A DNA stretch of 28,717 nucleotides, taken from positions 1 to 28,717 of the IMG/VR virus record IMGVR_UViG_3300042544_001325; one strand, 5' to 3'. Below, piece after piece: positions 22,186-27,274 of this stretch. The DNA comes from a virus. Position numbers and translations under genes: made by a program. The first letter of the stretch is position 1; every line of letters starts with the position of its first letter. The notes under the pieces were generated by a model that saw nothing but the letters and a program-made list of their open reading frames with translations, was not told the origin of the DNA and did not search any database.

Positions 22186-22268
22186 TATTATAATGTTATA
22201 TAATATAATATAACATTATATAATCTATATAATATAACTAATGTTATATTATATAATATAATATAACT
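22186..22268. repeat. AT-rich inverted-repeat block
   Basis: Over 80 bp of nearly pure A/T. It contains a 9-bp stem ATGTTATAT/ATATAACAT (22193-22216) and a perfect 11-bp stem GTTATATTATA/TATAATATAAC with a 3-nt loop (22243-22267). The two share an 18-bp direct repeat (TATATAATATAATATAAC); a shorter related copy lies between them. Candidate duplex-unwinding element or origin, next to the replication operon. Confidence 0.75.
22187..22192 (-). promoter_or_regulatory. -10 box of the transglycosylase promoter
   Basis: TATAAT on the minus strand, about 15 nt before the ATG with GGAGG between. A -35 is not clear because the upstream DNA is almost pure A/T. Confidence 0.5.
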
Positions 22269-22269
22269 A

Positions 22270-22284
22270 CTTTCTAATAGAAAG
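22270..22284. promoter_or_regulatory. TTTCTANTAGAAA palindrome, copy 9
   Basis: CTTTCTAATAGAAAG, the rightmost copy, between the AT-rich block and the replication operon. No -35/-10 pair follows with the spacing seen at copies 1 and 3. Confidence 0.75.
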
Positions 22285-22301
22285 TAGATTATATTACTAA
22301 C

Positions 22302-22386: not shown

Positions 22387-22416
22387 GAACCCTAACGGTA
22401 ATCAAAGGAGGATTAA

Positions 22417-22623
22417 GTGTTAAAGATAAACGGATACGATGTCCCTGAACATGTTTCCTATTCAAGTATTACCACTTGGTTGTCCTGTGGGTATCGTTAT
22501 TACTTAACTCGTATTCAAAAAGTTGAGGAACAACCTGCTGCTTGGACTCTTGGTGGTTCTGCTGTGCATAGGGCAACAGAGATTTATGATTTAGAATTAT
22601 GGAAAACAAATCATGACAGTTAA
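22417..22623 (+). CDS. Cas4/RecB-type nuclease, N-terminal fragment (68 aa)
   Basis: GTG start with AAAGGAGG 7 nt upstream. Residues 14-57 match the N-terminal part of actinophage Cas4/RecB-like exonucleases: YSSITTWLSCGYRYYL with Cys24 (first Fe-S ligand in that family) and TLGGSAVHRATEIYD with His51 (motif I). The frame then stops at TAA 22621-22623 in LWKTNHDS. The expected continuation (metal motifs and three more Cys) is encoded 500 bp downstream in the same frame, after a different ORF. Intact relatives are single proteins of roughly 250-320 aa, so this is a split or interrupted gene. Translation overlaps the next ORF by 11 nt. Confidence 0.82.
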   Translation: MLKINGYDVPEHVSYSSITTWLSCGYRYYLTRIQKVEEQPAAWTLGGSAVHRATEIYDLELWKTNHDS

Positions 22624-23128
22624 GTTAATTAAAACTGAGCATGCATTGTTACCTTGGGAAGAAGCAATCTGTGCAAGGATAGGTTACGAAAGACAACTAC
22701 CTTACCTTGGTAAACCTAAAGCAAACAGGAACTATTCTGAGGGTGATGTGTGGGAAATTTGGCAACACTCTATCGCAGTTGGTAGTGAGTTAGCCTTTGC
22801 TCGCATGATAGGGCTTGAAGATTTTGTTCCTCATGTTAACAAGTGGAAGACACAAGAAGATGTTCCAGGTTTTGAGATAAGATATTCGTTTAAAAAAACT
22901 GGTATCAGACTTTCAAGTTGGGATGATGAGAACGCAACATACATTCTTATCGGTGATGGTCTGAATGTTAAGACCAGAAGAAACGAGTACAACAACTGGG
23001 CTAGTGAACCTTATCGTGCACTTGGGTGGGCGACAGGAAAAGAAATCAAAGAGCGTGGTGTGTTAGATACCAAGTACAACTATTGGATGCTACCATTAGA
23101 GAACACAAACAAGATGGAGCAACTATGA
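22613..23128 (+). CDS. Inserted ORF, possible PD-(D/E)XK-like phage nuclease (171 aa)
   Basis: Lies precisely between the two pieces of the Cas4/RecB-like gene, in another frame, and overlaps both (11 nt and ATGA). The fold pattern is like a widespread small phage family: IAVGSELAFARMIGL (Glu59), then DVPGFEIRYS (Asp83, Glu88, Arg90), TGIRLSSWDDENATYILIGD and YRALGWATGKEIKERG. The spaced Glu...Asp-x4-Glu-x-Arg resembles a PD-(D/E)XK core, with Arg in place of Lys. No HNH, GIY-YIG or LAGLIDADG motif is visible. It could be a free-standing homing-type insertion or a cargo gene; the nuclease call is tentative. Confidence 0.65.
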   Translation: MTVKLIKTEHALLPWEEAICARIGYERQLPYLGKPKANRNYSEGDVWEIWQHSIAVGSELAFARMIGLEDFVPHVNKWKTQEDVPGFEIRYSFKKTGIRLSSWDDENATYILIGDGLNVKTRRNEYNNWASEPYRALGWATGKEIKERGVLDTKYNYWMLPLENTNKMEQL

Positions 23129-23787
23129 ACGTAGATAGTATTTGGACACAAGCATGGAACGCAGAAGTTGAAGAGATAAAAAGATATCAGAAACCAAACT
23201 TTGATATTGCTGACCTAAGACAATCTGTTCGCAGAACTAAGGCTATCCCTGATGGTGAGAACGCTGAGTGGTGGTTTGAGAATGGTAAAAAGTTTTTGAA
23301 CTCTTGGATTCAATGGCGTGCTAACTGTGGTTGGGAAATATGGGAAACACCACAAGGTGTACCTGCCATAGAGTTAATGCTTGAGATTGAAACAGGTGGT
23401 GTCAATATCAAAGGTGCAATAGACCGAGTGTTTGTTACACCTCAAGGTGAAATTATTATTGTTGATTTGAAAACAGGTATGCGTACACCACAGTCAGACT
23501 TACAGTTACAGGTGTATGCTTGCATGTTAGAACGTGCCACTGGCGTGCGACCACAATATGGTGCATATTGGATGGCAAGACAAGGTGGCACAAGTGTGCC
23601 CACTGAGTTAAATAAGTTTACATTACAAAAGTTAGATGAAATGATTGGTCTCTTCCAGATTGCACGAGAGAACAATCTTTATCTACCTAACTTTGAGTCA
23701 TGTAAAATGTGCTCCGTCATGGAGTACTGTTACTGGGTAGACGGTGAAAAGTCTAACAAGTTGGGAGAAATAAATGGCAACAAATGA
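23125..23787 (+). CDS. Cas4/RecB-type nuclease, C-terminal catalytic fragment (220 aa)
   Basis: Starts at ATG 23125 inside the stop of the inserted ORF (ATGA). The catalytic motifs are here: IKGAIDRVFV (Asp100), EIIIVDLKTG (Asp114, Lys116), DLQLQVYACML (Q-x-x-x-Y type motif), and CKMCSVMEYC (Cys193, 196, 202), the three C-terminal Fe-S ligands of Cas4/AddB-type enzymes. The first half (WTQAWNAEVEEIKRYQKPNF ... WFENGKKFLNSWIQWR) corresponds to the helical middle of intact relatives. Motif I His and the fourth Cys are missing; both are in the 22417-22623 fragment. Likely an exonuclease for recombination or end processing if the parts assemble. Confidence 0.85.
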   Translation: MNVDSIWTQAWNAEVEEIKRYQKPNFDIADLRQSVRRTKAIPDGENAEWWFENGKKFLNSWIQWRANCGWEIWETPQGVPAIELMLEIETGGVNIKGAIDRVFVTPQGEIIIVDLKTGMRTPQSDLQLQVYACMLERATGVRPQYGAYWMARQGGTSVPTELNKFTLQKLDEMIGLFQIARENNLYLPNFESCKMCSVMEYCYWVDGEKSNKLGEINGNK

Positions 23788-24205: not shown

Positions 24206-24994
24206 GTGAGAACACTCACTAGAACAATTGGTAAAACTGAATCAGGTGGCGAACCATTGCCACCTGTGTTCAGGACATTTGAGTATGCCCAAATTGTTTT
24301 ACGTCGCAGTGAAGTGAGTATGTTTGCTGGTGCCCCTGGTGCTGGTAAATCAACACTTGCTTTAGCGTTAGCAACTTGGATGAAAGTTCCTACCTTATAC
24401 ATTTCAGCAGACACAGGCGCACACACAATGAGTATGCGTTTGTTCTCAATGCTTACAGGTAAGAGCCAAGATGAGTCAGAGAAACTTCTATCATCAGATG
24501 CACAGTTCGCTAGAGAAGCAATCAATAAAGGTTCAAGCCACATCTTCTGGTCATTCGATGCAGCACCATCGTTATCTGATTTAGATGAAGAGGTACTTTC
24601 ATTTGAAGAAGTACATGGTGAGAACCCACACTTGATTGTGTTAGATAACTTGATTGACATCACCGATGGTGGTGGCGAAGAGTGGTCTAGTATGCGTCAA
24701 ACTATGAAAGAGATAAAGTTTCTTGCAAGAGATACTAACGCTGCTGTTCTTATCCTTCATCACACAAGTGAAGCCTTTGATAGTAACCCTTGTCCACCAA
24801 GGTCAGCAATTCAAGGTAAAGTTTCACAACTACCAGCACTGATTTGTACCATAGGTCAAACACCTAACGGTATGATGGGTGTTGCACCAGTGAAGAATCG
24901 TTACGGCAAGGCTAACGCTTCTGGCAATGAACCAGTTTATCTGTCATTCAATCCAGAGTTCATGTATCTGGCTGACCCAAGAGAATCTTTATGA
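24206..24994 (+). CDS. RecA/DnaB-fold ATPase (helicase or recombinase)
   Basis: 262 aa from a GTG that directly follows the upstream stop. Walker A GAPGAGKST is at 42-50, Walker B HLIVLDNL at 142-149 (Asp147), and a sensor-like VLILHHTSEA at 181-190. The layout (AAA_25/KaiC-like core, no N-terminal DnaB domain) fits phage replicative-helicase-like or Sak4/RecA-like ATPases; I cannot choose between them. Neighbours (nuclease, resolvase, primase) support DNA replication and recombination. It overlaps the 31-aa Cys peptide by ATGA. Confidence 0.85.
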   Translation: MRTLTRTIGKTESGGEPLPPVFRTFEYAQIVLRRSEVSMFAGAPGAGKSTLALALATWMKVPTLYISADTGAHTMSMRLFSMLTGKSQDESEKLLSSDAQFAREAINKGSSHIFWSFDAAPSLSDLDEEVLSFEEVHGENPHLIVLDNLIDITDGGGEEWSSMRQTMKEIKFLARDTNAAVLILHHTSEAFDSNPCPPRSAIQGKVSQLPALICTIGQTPNGMMGVAPVKNRYGKANASGNEPVYLSFNPEFMYLADPRESL

Positions 24995-25086
24995 GAAACA
25001 TGGATGGCAGATGTTATATCTGTTCATCCATTTGGTACTGCACATGCAATAACGAATCGAATATAGGTGAAGATGAGCAAGTCTAA
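24991..25086 (+). CDS. Cysteine-rich micropeptide (31 aa)
   Basis: 31-aa ORF starting in the ATGA junction after the ATPase gene. The product MRNMDGRCYICSSIWYCTCN carries C-x2-C and C-x-C, enough for one metal site, and an acidic end (NIGEDEQV). It overlaps the resolvase start by about 14 nt. Coupling on both sides favours translation; no family recognised. Confidence 0.55.
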   Translation: MRNMDGRCYICSSIWYCTCNNESNIGEDEQV

Positions 25087-25408
25087 ACAAAAAGGTACTG
25101 CTGCAGAAACTGCTGTTGTCAAATACCTTAAAGCAAACGGCTTCCCTAAAGCAGAGCGTCGTGCATTACAAGGTAGTTTAGATAAGGGTGACATCTCAGG
25201 TATTGATGATGTGGTATTTGAAGTTAAAGACCACAAGAAGATGGAACTATCTGGTTGGGTTAAAGAGTTAGTAGTAGAAGTAGATAATGCTGATGCTGTA
25301 ACAGGTGCAGTTATACATAAAAGAAAAGGAACATTAGATGTTGGTGAATGGTACGCAACCATGCCAGTGTATATGTTTCTATCTTTGATAAGGGAACTTG
25401 ATGTCTGA
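25073..25408 (+). CDS. Holliday junction resolvase-like endonuclease (PD-(D/E)XK)
   Basis: About 111 aa starting MSKSKQKGTAAETAVVKYLK (ATG 25073, AGG 5 nt upstream; GTG 25067 also possible). The core reads GTAAETAVV (Glu of motif I), RRALQGSLDKGDISGI (motif II Asp), VVFEVKDHKK (E-x-K), the arrangement of Hjc/Hjr-type archaeal and phage resolvases. It would cut four-way junctions during recombination or before packaging. Sits between the ATPase and primase genes, overlapping the primase start by 8 nt. Confidence 0.85.
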   Translation: MSKSKQKGTAAETAVVKYLKANGFPKAERRALQGSLDKGDISGIDDVVFEVKDHKKMELSGWVKELVVEVDNADAVTGAVIHKRKGTLDVGEWYATMPVYMFLSLIRELDV

Positions 25409-25817
25409 TTCACCTATCGCAAAAGTGTTGATGTTATATGGGGCAAACAAAGTCCCATCTGGCAGAGGATGGCGCAGTATGAAGTGTCCTTTTCATTCTG
25501 ACCGTCACGCCTCAGCAACAGTTAACACTGAGGTGAATGCGTTCTCATGTTTTGCGTGTAGTATTAAGGGAGATTTGTACAAGATTATTATGGAGCAGGA
25601 AGGGATTGGTTTTCGTGAAGCAAAATCAAGAGCAGAAGAGATTACTGGAACAAGCAACATCACATTACCAAAAGTCAATCAACTTGGCAGAAGAGTACCT
25701 CGGCAAGAGGGGAATATCATTAGTAGACGCAGAGAGGTTTCGTCTGGGAGTAGTGAGCCAACCACTCGTAGGTCACGAAGTGTATCAGAACAGACTGGCG
25801 ATACCTTACATAACTAG
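25401..25817 (+). CDS. DNA primase, zinc-binding domain (upstream frame)
   Basis: Starts MSDSPIAKVLMLYGANKVPS (ATG 25401). The CHC2-type zinc finger is clear: MKCPFHSDRHASATV (Cys29, His32), then FSCFACSIKGD (Cys50, Cys53), followed by a helix (IIMEQEGIGFREAKSRAEEI). After about residue 90 (ITLPK) the frame becomes non-homologous Arg/Ser-rich sequence up to TGDTLHN. The TOPRIM part of the enzyme continues in the +1 frame. The real product is probably a zinc domain joined to the TOPRIM by frameshift, or a separate short protein; an assembly indel is also possible. Confidence 0.75.
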   Translation: MSDSPIAKVLMLYGANKVPSGRGWRSMKCPFHSDRHASATVNTEVNAFSCFACSIKGDLYKIIMEQEGIGFREAKSRAEEITGTSNITLPKVNQLGRRVPRQEGNIISRRREVSSGSSEPTTRRSRSVSEQTGDTLHN

Positions 25818-26229
25818 AGCAGGTGTTGTTGATATAAGATTCAGAGCAATAGATTATTCTGAACCAAAGTATCTTGGTCTTCCAGGTTCAGAGACAAGGT
25901 TATACAATGTTGAAGCATACTTTCAGGCAACTGATTGGATATGTTTATGTGAAGGTGAGATAGATACTATGACACTTTCTAAACTAGGTTACCCTGCTAT
26001 CGGTATTCCTGGTGTAAAAAACATTAAGTCACATCATTACAAAATATTGTCAGACTTTGACAGAATATATGTGTTCGCTGATGGTGACACAGCAGGACGT
26101 GACTTTGCTAAAGACTTAGCAAGAAGAGTAGCAGGTGTTATACCTATCACTATTCCCGATGGTGAAGATGTTAACAGTTTGTTTATTAAAGATGGTTCCG
26201 ATTGGTTCAAAGGAAAGGTCGCTGCTTAA
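25615..26229 (+). CDS. dnaG: DNA primase, TOPRIM catalytic part (downstream frame)
   Basis: Homology begins near SINLAEEYLGKRGISLVDAE (25675 on), continuous with the zinc-domain frame if one base is skipped near 25670. GTG 25615 is the nearest alternative start (GGAAGGGA upstream), but its first 20 residues do not look native. The catalytic TOPRIM shows ICLCEGEIDTMTLSKLG (E of EGxxD) and VFADGDTAGRDFAKDLARR (DxD). It would make RNA primers. Ends at a TAATG overlap with the next gene. Split primase ORFs have been noted in some mycobacteriophages, so the frameshift may be biological. Confidence 0.82.
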   Translation: MKQNQEQKRLLEQATSHYQKSINLAEEYLGKRGISLVDAERFRLGVVSQPLVGHEVYQNRLAIPYITRAGVVDIRFRAIDYSEPKYLGLPGSETRLYNVEAYFQATDWICLCEGEIDTMTLSKLGYPAIGIPGVKNIKSHHYKILSDFDRIYVFADGDTAGRDFAKDLARRVAGVIPITIPDGEDVNSLFIKDGSDWFKGKVAA

Positions 26230-26522
26230 TGTATAACGAAGTAAGATTTGGTGAACTAACCTATGTGTACACAGATGGTTTAGCAGAACTGTTGATTAGA
26301 AAACAAAAAGATTATGGACCAAAAAATATTTCTGATTCACCTGGTGGTCCACTTAATGGGTTGCGTGTGAGAATGTTTGACAAACTCGCTCGCATTAATA
26401 ACCTTGTTGAAACAGGTGCAACACCAGAGAACGAATCTTTACGTGATTCGTTTATGGATATAGCAAACTATGCAATCATCGCAATGATGGTGCTAGATAA
26501 ACAATGGGAAGGCGTTGAATGA
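26229..26522 (+). CDS. DUF1599-like protein (nucleotide-modification-associated domain 1)
   Basis: 97 aa starting MYNEVRFGELTYVYTDGLAE at the TAATG junction. The body KQKDYGPKNI ... LRVRMFDKLARINNL ... RDSFMDIANYAIIAM matches the short helical domain known as DUF1599 or Nmad1, which resembles MazG-type all-helical proteins and is often found beside nucleotide-metabolism genes in phages. It may act on nucleotides or modified bases; the exact reaction is not established. Overlaps the phosphoesterase gene by 4 nt. Confidence 0.78.
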   Translation: MYNEVRFGELTYVYTDGLAELLIRKQKDYGPKNISDSPGGPLNGLRVRMFDKLARINNLVETGATPENESLRDSFMDIANYAIIAMMVLDKQWEGVE

Positions 26523-27274
26523 AACGCATTGTAGTCTTATCGGATATGCAAATACCATTGCATAATAAGCCAGCAATAAACGCAGTGATAAAGTTTGTTA
26601 AAGACTACCAACCAGATGAACTCTTTTGTGTAGGAGATGAAGCAGATTGTTTAGCACCAGCACGCTGGTCTAAAGGGTATGTTGCTGAGCATTCTAATCT
26701 GCAACGAGACCTTGATGAAACCACTACCATTATGGGTAAGTTTCGTAAAGCAATAGGAAGTAAACCTTTTCATTTGATGAGAAGTAATCATGGCGACAGG
26801 ATACAACGTTACATTGAACGTGATGCGCCAGCGTTAGCAACACTTAGAGATTTGAAGTATGAGAAACTATTAGGTTATCGTGAACTAGATATCACATACC
26901 ATAATAAACTGTGGAACTTTGCCCCAGGTTGGGTGATGGGTCATGGTGATGAAGGTGCAACCAGTCGTTATGCAGGTGGCACAGCAGTATCATTGGCAAG
27001 AAAGATTGGCATGTCAGTGGTGTGTGGTCACACACATAAGCAAGGAATAATCCATCACAACACATCATTCAATGGTAAACAAACATCATCATTGTATGGG
27101 TTTGAAGTTGGAAACATTATGGATTTGAAACAAGCCACATATCTCAAAGGTGGAAGTGCCAACTGGCAAAGTGGGTTTGGTATCTTATACATTGATAAAG
27201 GTAAGGTAACACCTGTACCTGTACCAATGGTAGGTAACTCATTTGTAGTAGAAGGAAAAAGTTACAGATGGTAG
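26519..27274 (+). CDS. Calcineurin-like metallophosphoesterase
   Basis: 251 aa with the metallophosphoesterase motif series: VVLSDMQIPLHN (Asp9, with Gln11 in place of the usual His), FCVGDEADC (Asp40, Asp43), RSNHGDR (Asn90, His91), WVMGHGDE (His142) and VCGHTHKQG (170-173). The fold binds two metal ions and cleaves phosphoester bonds. Substrate unknown; family members in phages have been linked to nucleotide or nucleic-acid processing. The Gln at motif I is also seen in related phage proteins, so activity is not excluded. Start overlaps the previous stop. Confidence 0.88.
   Translation: MKRIVVLSDMQIPLHNKPAINAVIKFVKDYQPDELFCVGDEADCLAPARWSKGYVAEHSNLQRDLDETTTIMGKFRKAIGSKPFHLMRSNHGDRIQRYIERDAPALATLRDLKYEKLLGYRELDITYHNKLWNFAPGWVMGHGDEGATSRYAGGTAVSLARKIGMSVVCGHTHKQGIIHHNTSFNGKQTSSLYGFEVGNIMDLKQATYLKGGSANWQSGFGILYIDKGKVTPVPVPMVGNSFVVEGKSYRW

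Follow-up and report, generated by a model that had tools for sequence, protein, structure and literature searches.

A stretch of viral DNA very probably encodes a stable two-chain enzyme of the Cas4/RecB family, with the junction between its two half-genes serving as a slot in which cargo genes are exchanged. The window (the whole 28,717-nucleotide stretch analysed, a 28.7-kb virus record) carries at positions 22417-23787 three overlapping open reading frames, termed here N, M and C. Comparison with related phage sequences reveals the two half-genes, the slot, turnover of its cargo, conservation of the key residues and selection on the reading frames. New here are the Cas4-type Fe-S nuclease as the enzyme that is split and the slot with its many cargos. 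Cluster ligands and active site divided between chains of 68 and 220 amino acids would make the nuclease unusual among natural split enzymes. The relatives comprise intact, split-empty and split-with-cargo forms, which makes the origin of genes in pieces and of insertion slots directly testable.

Layout of the locus

The features of the locus, all on the plus strand, are as follows.

22406..22411, +, AGGAGG, Shine-Dalgarno-like sequence 5′ of N, read off the sequence
22417..22623, +, N chain, Cas4-like nuclease, 68 aa, GTG start
22486-22488, +, codon of Cys24 of N
22567-22569, +, codon of His51 of N
22613..23128, +, M, cargo reading frame of family A, 171 aa
23116..23119, +, GGAG within the 3′ end of M, possible ribosome-binding site of C, read off the sequence
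23125..23128, +, ATGA overlap of the C start and the M stop, read off the sequence
23125..23787, +, C chain, 220 aa, likely start ATG at 23125
23422-23424, +, codon of D100 of C
23464-23472, +, codons of D114-x-K116 of C, followed by Q127 and Y131
23701-23703, 23710-23712 and 23728-23730, +, codons of Cys193, Cys196 and Cys202 of C

An open reading frame lying exactly between the two fragments and overlapping both had been described before, and this is what is found: the start of M and the end of N share 11 nt, and the stop of M lies in the ATGA together with the start of C, whose frame is open from 23026 to 23787. Upstream of N an AT-rich repeat tract (22189-22290) and then a 9-bp hairpin (22267-22287) form a possible terminator or promoter region. 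Shortly downstream of the N-C locus lie genes for an ATPase (DnaB/RecA-like) and for a primase. The latter occupies two overlapping reading frames in different frames, one with a CHC2 zinc ribbon (PF01807) and one with a TOPRIM domain (PF13155), at 25398-26229 of the window. The same two-frame arrangement occurs in L006, L031, L199, L204, L140 and L158 and can be read as a split primase or as a programmed frameshift. A WhiB gene upstream of the locus and the range of phages that carry relatives of the nuclease (phages of mycobacteria, Cutibacterium, Rhodococcus and Planktophila) point to an actinobacterial host for the window phage.

Two halves of one Cas4-like nuclease

In Pfam, N matches PF12705 at profile positions 1-48 (E 1e-5) and C matches the same profile at positions 98-246 (E 2e-12), with a further match of C to Cas4 PF01930 (5e-7). 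In PHROGs, N covers positions 11-67 of phrog_1870 (5e-11) and C positions 75-293 (2.5e-46). By these matches N and C are consecutive, non-overlapping, collinear parts of one predicted Cas4-like exonuclease, an agreement far beyond chance, which bears out the original suggestion of one nuclease in two pieces. The motifs named at the time (Cys24 and His51 in N; D100, D114-x-K116, C193, C196 and C202 in C) are all present. Together the chains have the profile match, the catalytic His, D, (D/E)xK, Q and Y and the four cysteines of the PF12705/phrog_1870 family, in which four conserved cysteines hold the Fe-S cluster (PMC5704561). The proteins annotated as Cas4 exonuclease in mycobacteriophages and Propionibacterium phages agree with N plus C in profile positions, catalytic residues and the four cysteines. 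They are annotated as single proteins, whereas the enzyme here is encoded as two polypeptides, often with other genes between them; two reading frames are found in the window as well as in each of the 59 split relatives that have both halves. As the preliminary description had argued, the active site and the Fe-S cluster would have to be rebuilt from two chains, the key residues being divided between N and C. No split Cas4 was found in the literature searched, and the word 'split' is absent from PMC5704561. A search of bacterial genomes with the C chain found none.

The divided residues are strictly kept. All sequences examined, split or of the intact clade, have Cys24, His51, Gly46 and Gly47 in N (59/59 split sequences for N) and D100, D114, K116, Q127, Y131, C193, C196 and C202 in C (67/67 split and 14/14 intact-clade sequences), and the split sequences that share them differ by up to ~60% in sequence. 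The ratio dN/dS is ~0.1-0.3 for N and C and lower for M, all well below 1; by this measure N, M and C evolve under purifying selection. The distance from the His to the DxK motif, summed over both chains, has a median of 125-130, as compared with 123 in intact relatives. Pairwise distances of N and of C are correlated (Spearman 0.73, for pairs that are non-independent, which deprives the p-value of meaning). The reading frame is disrupted relative to intact relatives, as it would be if N and C were the decaying remnants of a pseudogene, but purifying selection on both halves and the invariance of the catalytic and Fe-S positions across 59 and 67 sequences make decay highly unlikely. The N-C pair could be inactive, and selection argues against this as well.

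Split and intact relatives

A search of viral contigs with C returned 38 loci and a search with a profile 80; most of the data are metagenomic contigs. Close relatives invariably have N and C apart, with differing reading frames between them. The split form without any insert is represented by 21 distinct sequences, including those of two cultured Planktophila phages (empty split: L080-L092, L095-L100, L102, L103, L198-L201, L213 and L040, the last from a cultured Planktophila phage). At these empty junctions the ends of N and C overlap or abut in differing frames, for example through ATGA, TAATG or ATGAATAA. The cultured-phage records are OX376640, which is Planktophila phage LanE43AprE7, and its companion OX376641, taken to be AprF5 (PMC10202952). 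N and C are one base out of frame in both, and the empty split is therefore no metagenome artefact.

A check for intact relatives had been proposed and yields single reading frames in L094, in the clade L101/L104-L107/L214-L229 and in mycobacteriophage Phlei; these are outgroups only, and the insert-free relatives are split. Many phages that infect mycobacteria or skin bacteria make the nuclease as one protein, and a large group of aquatic phages, whose hosts are probably actinobacterial, make it as two. One contig of the intact clade (IMGVR_UViG_3300011268_000117, the source of both L108 and L230) has a frame-shifted nuclease gene, by sequencing error or by fresh fission.

N and C share a frame in the window, as had been pointed out, and a common frame is what an intron or an intein-like element restoring one protein by splicing would leave. 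The shared frame stands as an observation and is incidental, because relatives show phases 0, 1 and 2. Splicing is further contradicted by M, whose frame differs from that of N and C and which spans the entire gap, leaving no room for an intron outside the reading frame, by the lack of any Rfam match at E up to 1, by insert-free relatives that are nonetheless split and by unrelated cargos at the same site. The splicing element once entertained for this locus is thus extremely unlikely. Programmed frameshifting or ribosomal bypass was rejected on the varying N-C phase (0, 1, 2), the differing junction sequences and gaps of up to ~860 nt.

Cargo at the N-C junction

The cargo of the window belongs to family A, which is also found at the junction in L002, L003, L006-L012 and L024. 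Family B occupies it in L013, L029-L032, L037, L067-L074, L191 and L194, the related family D in L027, family C in L015-L020, L025, L033, L036, L057, L058, L062 and L063, and family E (DUF7004) in L035. Tandems occur as C+B in L022 and L023 and as E+C in L034, and L004 has a 41-aa zinc-ribbon reading frame in this place. In a tree of C chains with 78 rows, cargo-bearing rows form one clade of 37 rows (SH-aLRT 98) with four unrelated cargo families (A/B/D, C, E and the zinc ribbon). A fifth, family F, is separate: a reading frame of ~80 aa that the distant L123-L128 carry between N and C.

Turnover is seen most directly among the window (M), L004 (zinc ribbon) and L005 (empty), whose C chains are 96% identical despite differing cargo. 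L005 is cargo-free yet split; its N ends in ...LWKNKMEQL*, a scar of the M tail, its N and C overlap by ATGA, and the GGAG before C is still present despite the loss of M. The N-C junction exceeds 150 nt in 32/33 sequences of the cargo clade, the exception being L004 with its short reading frame. Among seven other junctions checked, six (C-p143, p143-ATPase, VRR-CHC2, TOPRIM-26229, 26229-26519 and 26519-27268) have zero inserts across cargo-clade sequences. The seventh, from the ATPase to a VRR-NUC-like gene (24994-25067 of the window), is a second variable junction, with gaps of -7 to 1122 nt in the cargo clade. A handful of loci (L004, L034, L013/L037) show suggestive target-site duplications at the cargo borders, and there is no systematic pattern.

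Members of families B and C are found at other sites as well, in some cases a few kilobases downstream in phages with an empty N-C junction, which marks them as ordinary accessory phage genes able to land in the slot.

Order of fission and insertion

On the tree, split versus intact requires 2 changes and the cargo labels require ~15. The split is old and stable. Fission followed by insertion and insertion followed by loss in the empty branch have about equal parsimony cost. The sequences favour fission first, by a small frameshift-type change, with cargo arriving later, because no scar marks the empty junctions and the two chains add up to the length of the intact enzyme. Insertion as the cause of the split is the less likely order. 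The proposal that insertion of M itself had made the split finds no support in view of the 21 split relatives without insert, the unrelated reading frames at the same junction and L005, split without M.

A mobile endonuclease (M or an earlier cargo) could have split an intact gene, as mobE did in the nrdA gene of phage Aeh1, with the empty splits arising by later loss. T4-like phages offer precedent for genes split by endonucleases (PMC2988022), L005 demonstrates that loss of cargo can leave the gene split, and a PD-(D/E)XK fold is present in one of the cargo families, C. This history nevertheless appears improbable in view of the 21 insert-free split sequences with scarless overlaps and a summed length equal to that of the intact enzyme. 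The cargos are moreover unrelated (DUF7004, the zinc ribbon and the 80-aa reading frame among them), so that a single element cannot explain the site; M has no Pfam match to a homing endonuclease family, and relatives of cargos B and C are ordinary genes elsewhere in other genomes.

The Aeh1 nrdA/mobE and T4 gene 60/mobA loci likewise encode an enzyme in two pieces with a reading frame between them, and the Aeh1 nrdA halves reassemble into an active enzyme (PMC2988022). The mobE and mobA inserts are HNH homing endonucleases found in one or a few phages, whereas the nuclease junction has insert-free splits and unrelated reading frames. M, which matches nothing in Pfam or PHROGs, is not a recognised homing endonuclease, and the insert-free relatives are not intact. 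The closest analogue is gene 43, the DNA polymerase gene of Aeromonas phages 25 (with seg43 as insert) and 44RR (with IC-UTS), whose halves co-purify and are active; the review suggests that the gene may have been in two pieces before an endonuclease invaded it (PMC2988022). The gene 43 case was inferred from two phages, and here many cargo states lie on one tree. The present locus also differs in enzyme family and in a predicted Fe-S cluster divided between chains.

Proposed assembly and exchange

In the preferred explanation, fission followed by cargo exchange, one operon would encode the Fe-S exonuclease as two polypeptides. N would supply motif I (His51) and the first Fe-S cysteine, and C the catalytic D, DxK, Q and Y with the other three cysteines. 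We infer that the chains assemble non-covalently into one active enzyme; the split phage enzymes NrdA (Aeh1) and gp43 (phage 25) reassemble and work (PMC2988022). The adjoining ATPase and primase genes suggest that the assembled nuclease probably serves phage recombination or replication. Since the frames of N and C would need no adjacency, the junction would tolerate cargo. Small accessory reading frames would enter the slot, be coupled at both ends through short stop/start overlaps and so be co-translated; M (22613-23128) would be the cargo of the window phage. Related phages would probably exchange cargo through recombination within the conserved N and C sequences on either side. A start codon for C is present in most phages, and a clear ATG, GTG or TTG at the expected place is missing in a few C chains (e.g., L024). 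A strong Shine-Dalgarno sequence, AAGGAGG, lies directly 5′ of C in the phages with family F cargo. The empty split form is available in two cultured Planktophila phages.

The cargo proteins

All 10 relatives found for M in viral contigs sit at the N-C junction. M has no Pfam match, no PHROG match and no match in phage records. Cargos B and D match phrog_18407 (E 5e-6 to 9e-18), and M, which does not match that profile directly, shows a weak but significant alignment with families B and D (with the D insert, hhalign probability 90, E 1.4e-6). M thus appears to be a distant relative of the phage family around phrog_18407. A possible PD-(D/E)XK core had been proposed for M, in which E59, D83 and E88-x-R90 are conserved. 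The structural model of M is of middling quality (pLDDT 67) and matches many uncharacterised viral proteins; among solved structures it has no confident match (PDB matches at probability <0.3). Recent lateral transfer of M between lineages was considered for L024, in which M is 89% identical and C 66%, and was rejected: dS is as high for M (1.46) as for C (1.24), and M may simply be more constrained.

Cargo C, which is absent from the window, is by its residues and its model a PD-(D/E)XK protein with an Hjc-like fold and a D...ExK core: 29 sequences share D28, E39 and K41 without exception, and the model (pLDDT 91) matches the archaeal Holliday junction resolvase Hjc (probability 1.00, E 8.5e-4). 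The slot itself could be functional, with cargo proteins that serve as an interchangeable third subunit or modulate the assembled nuclease, an Hjc-like resolvase partner being one example. This reading draws on presumed co-translation of the cargo between the chains and its occurrence in almost every member of one clade, and seems on the whole unlikely. In L131, L133 and L137 cargos C and B are adjacent in the order of the L022/L023 tandem; no nuclease was found near them, and families C and B may travel as a pair.
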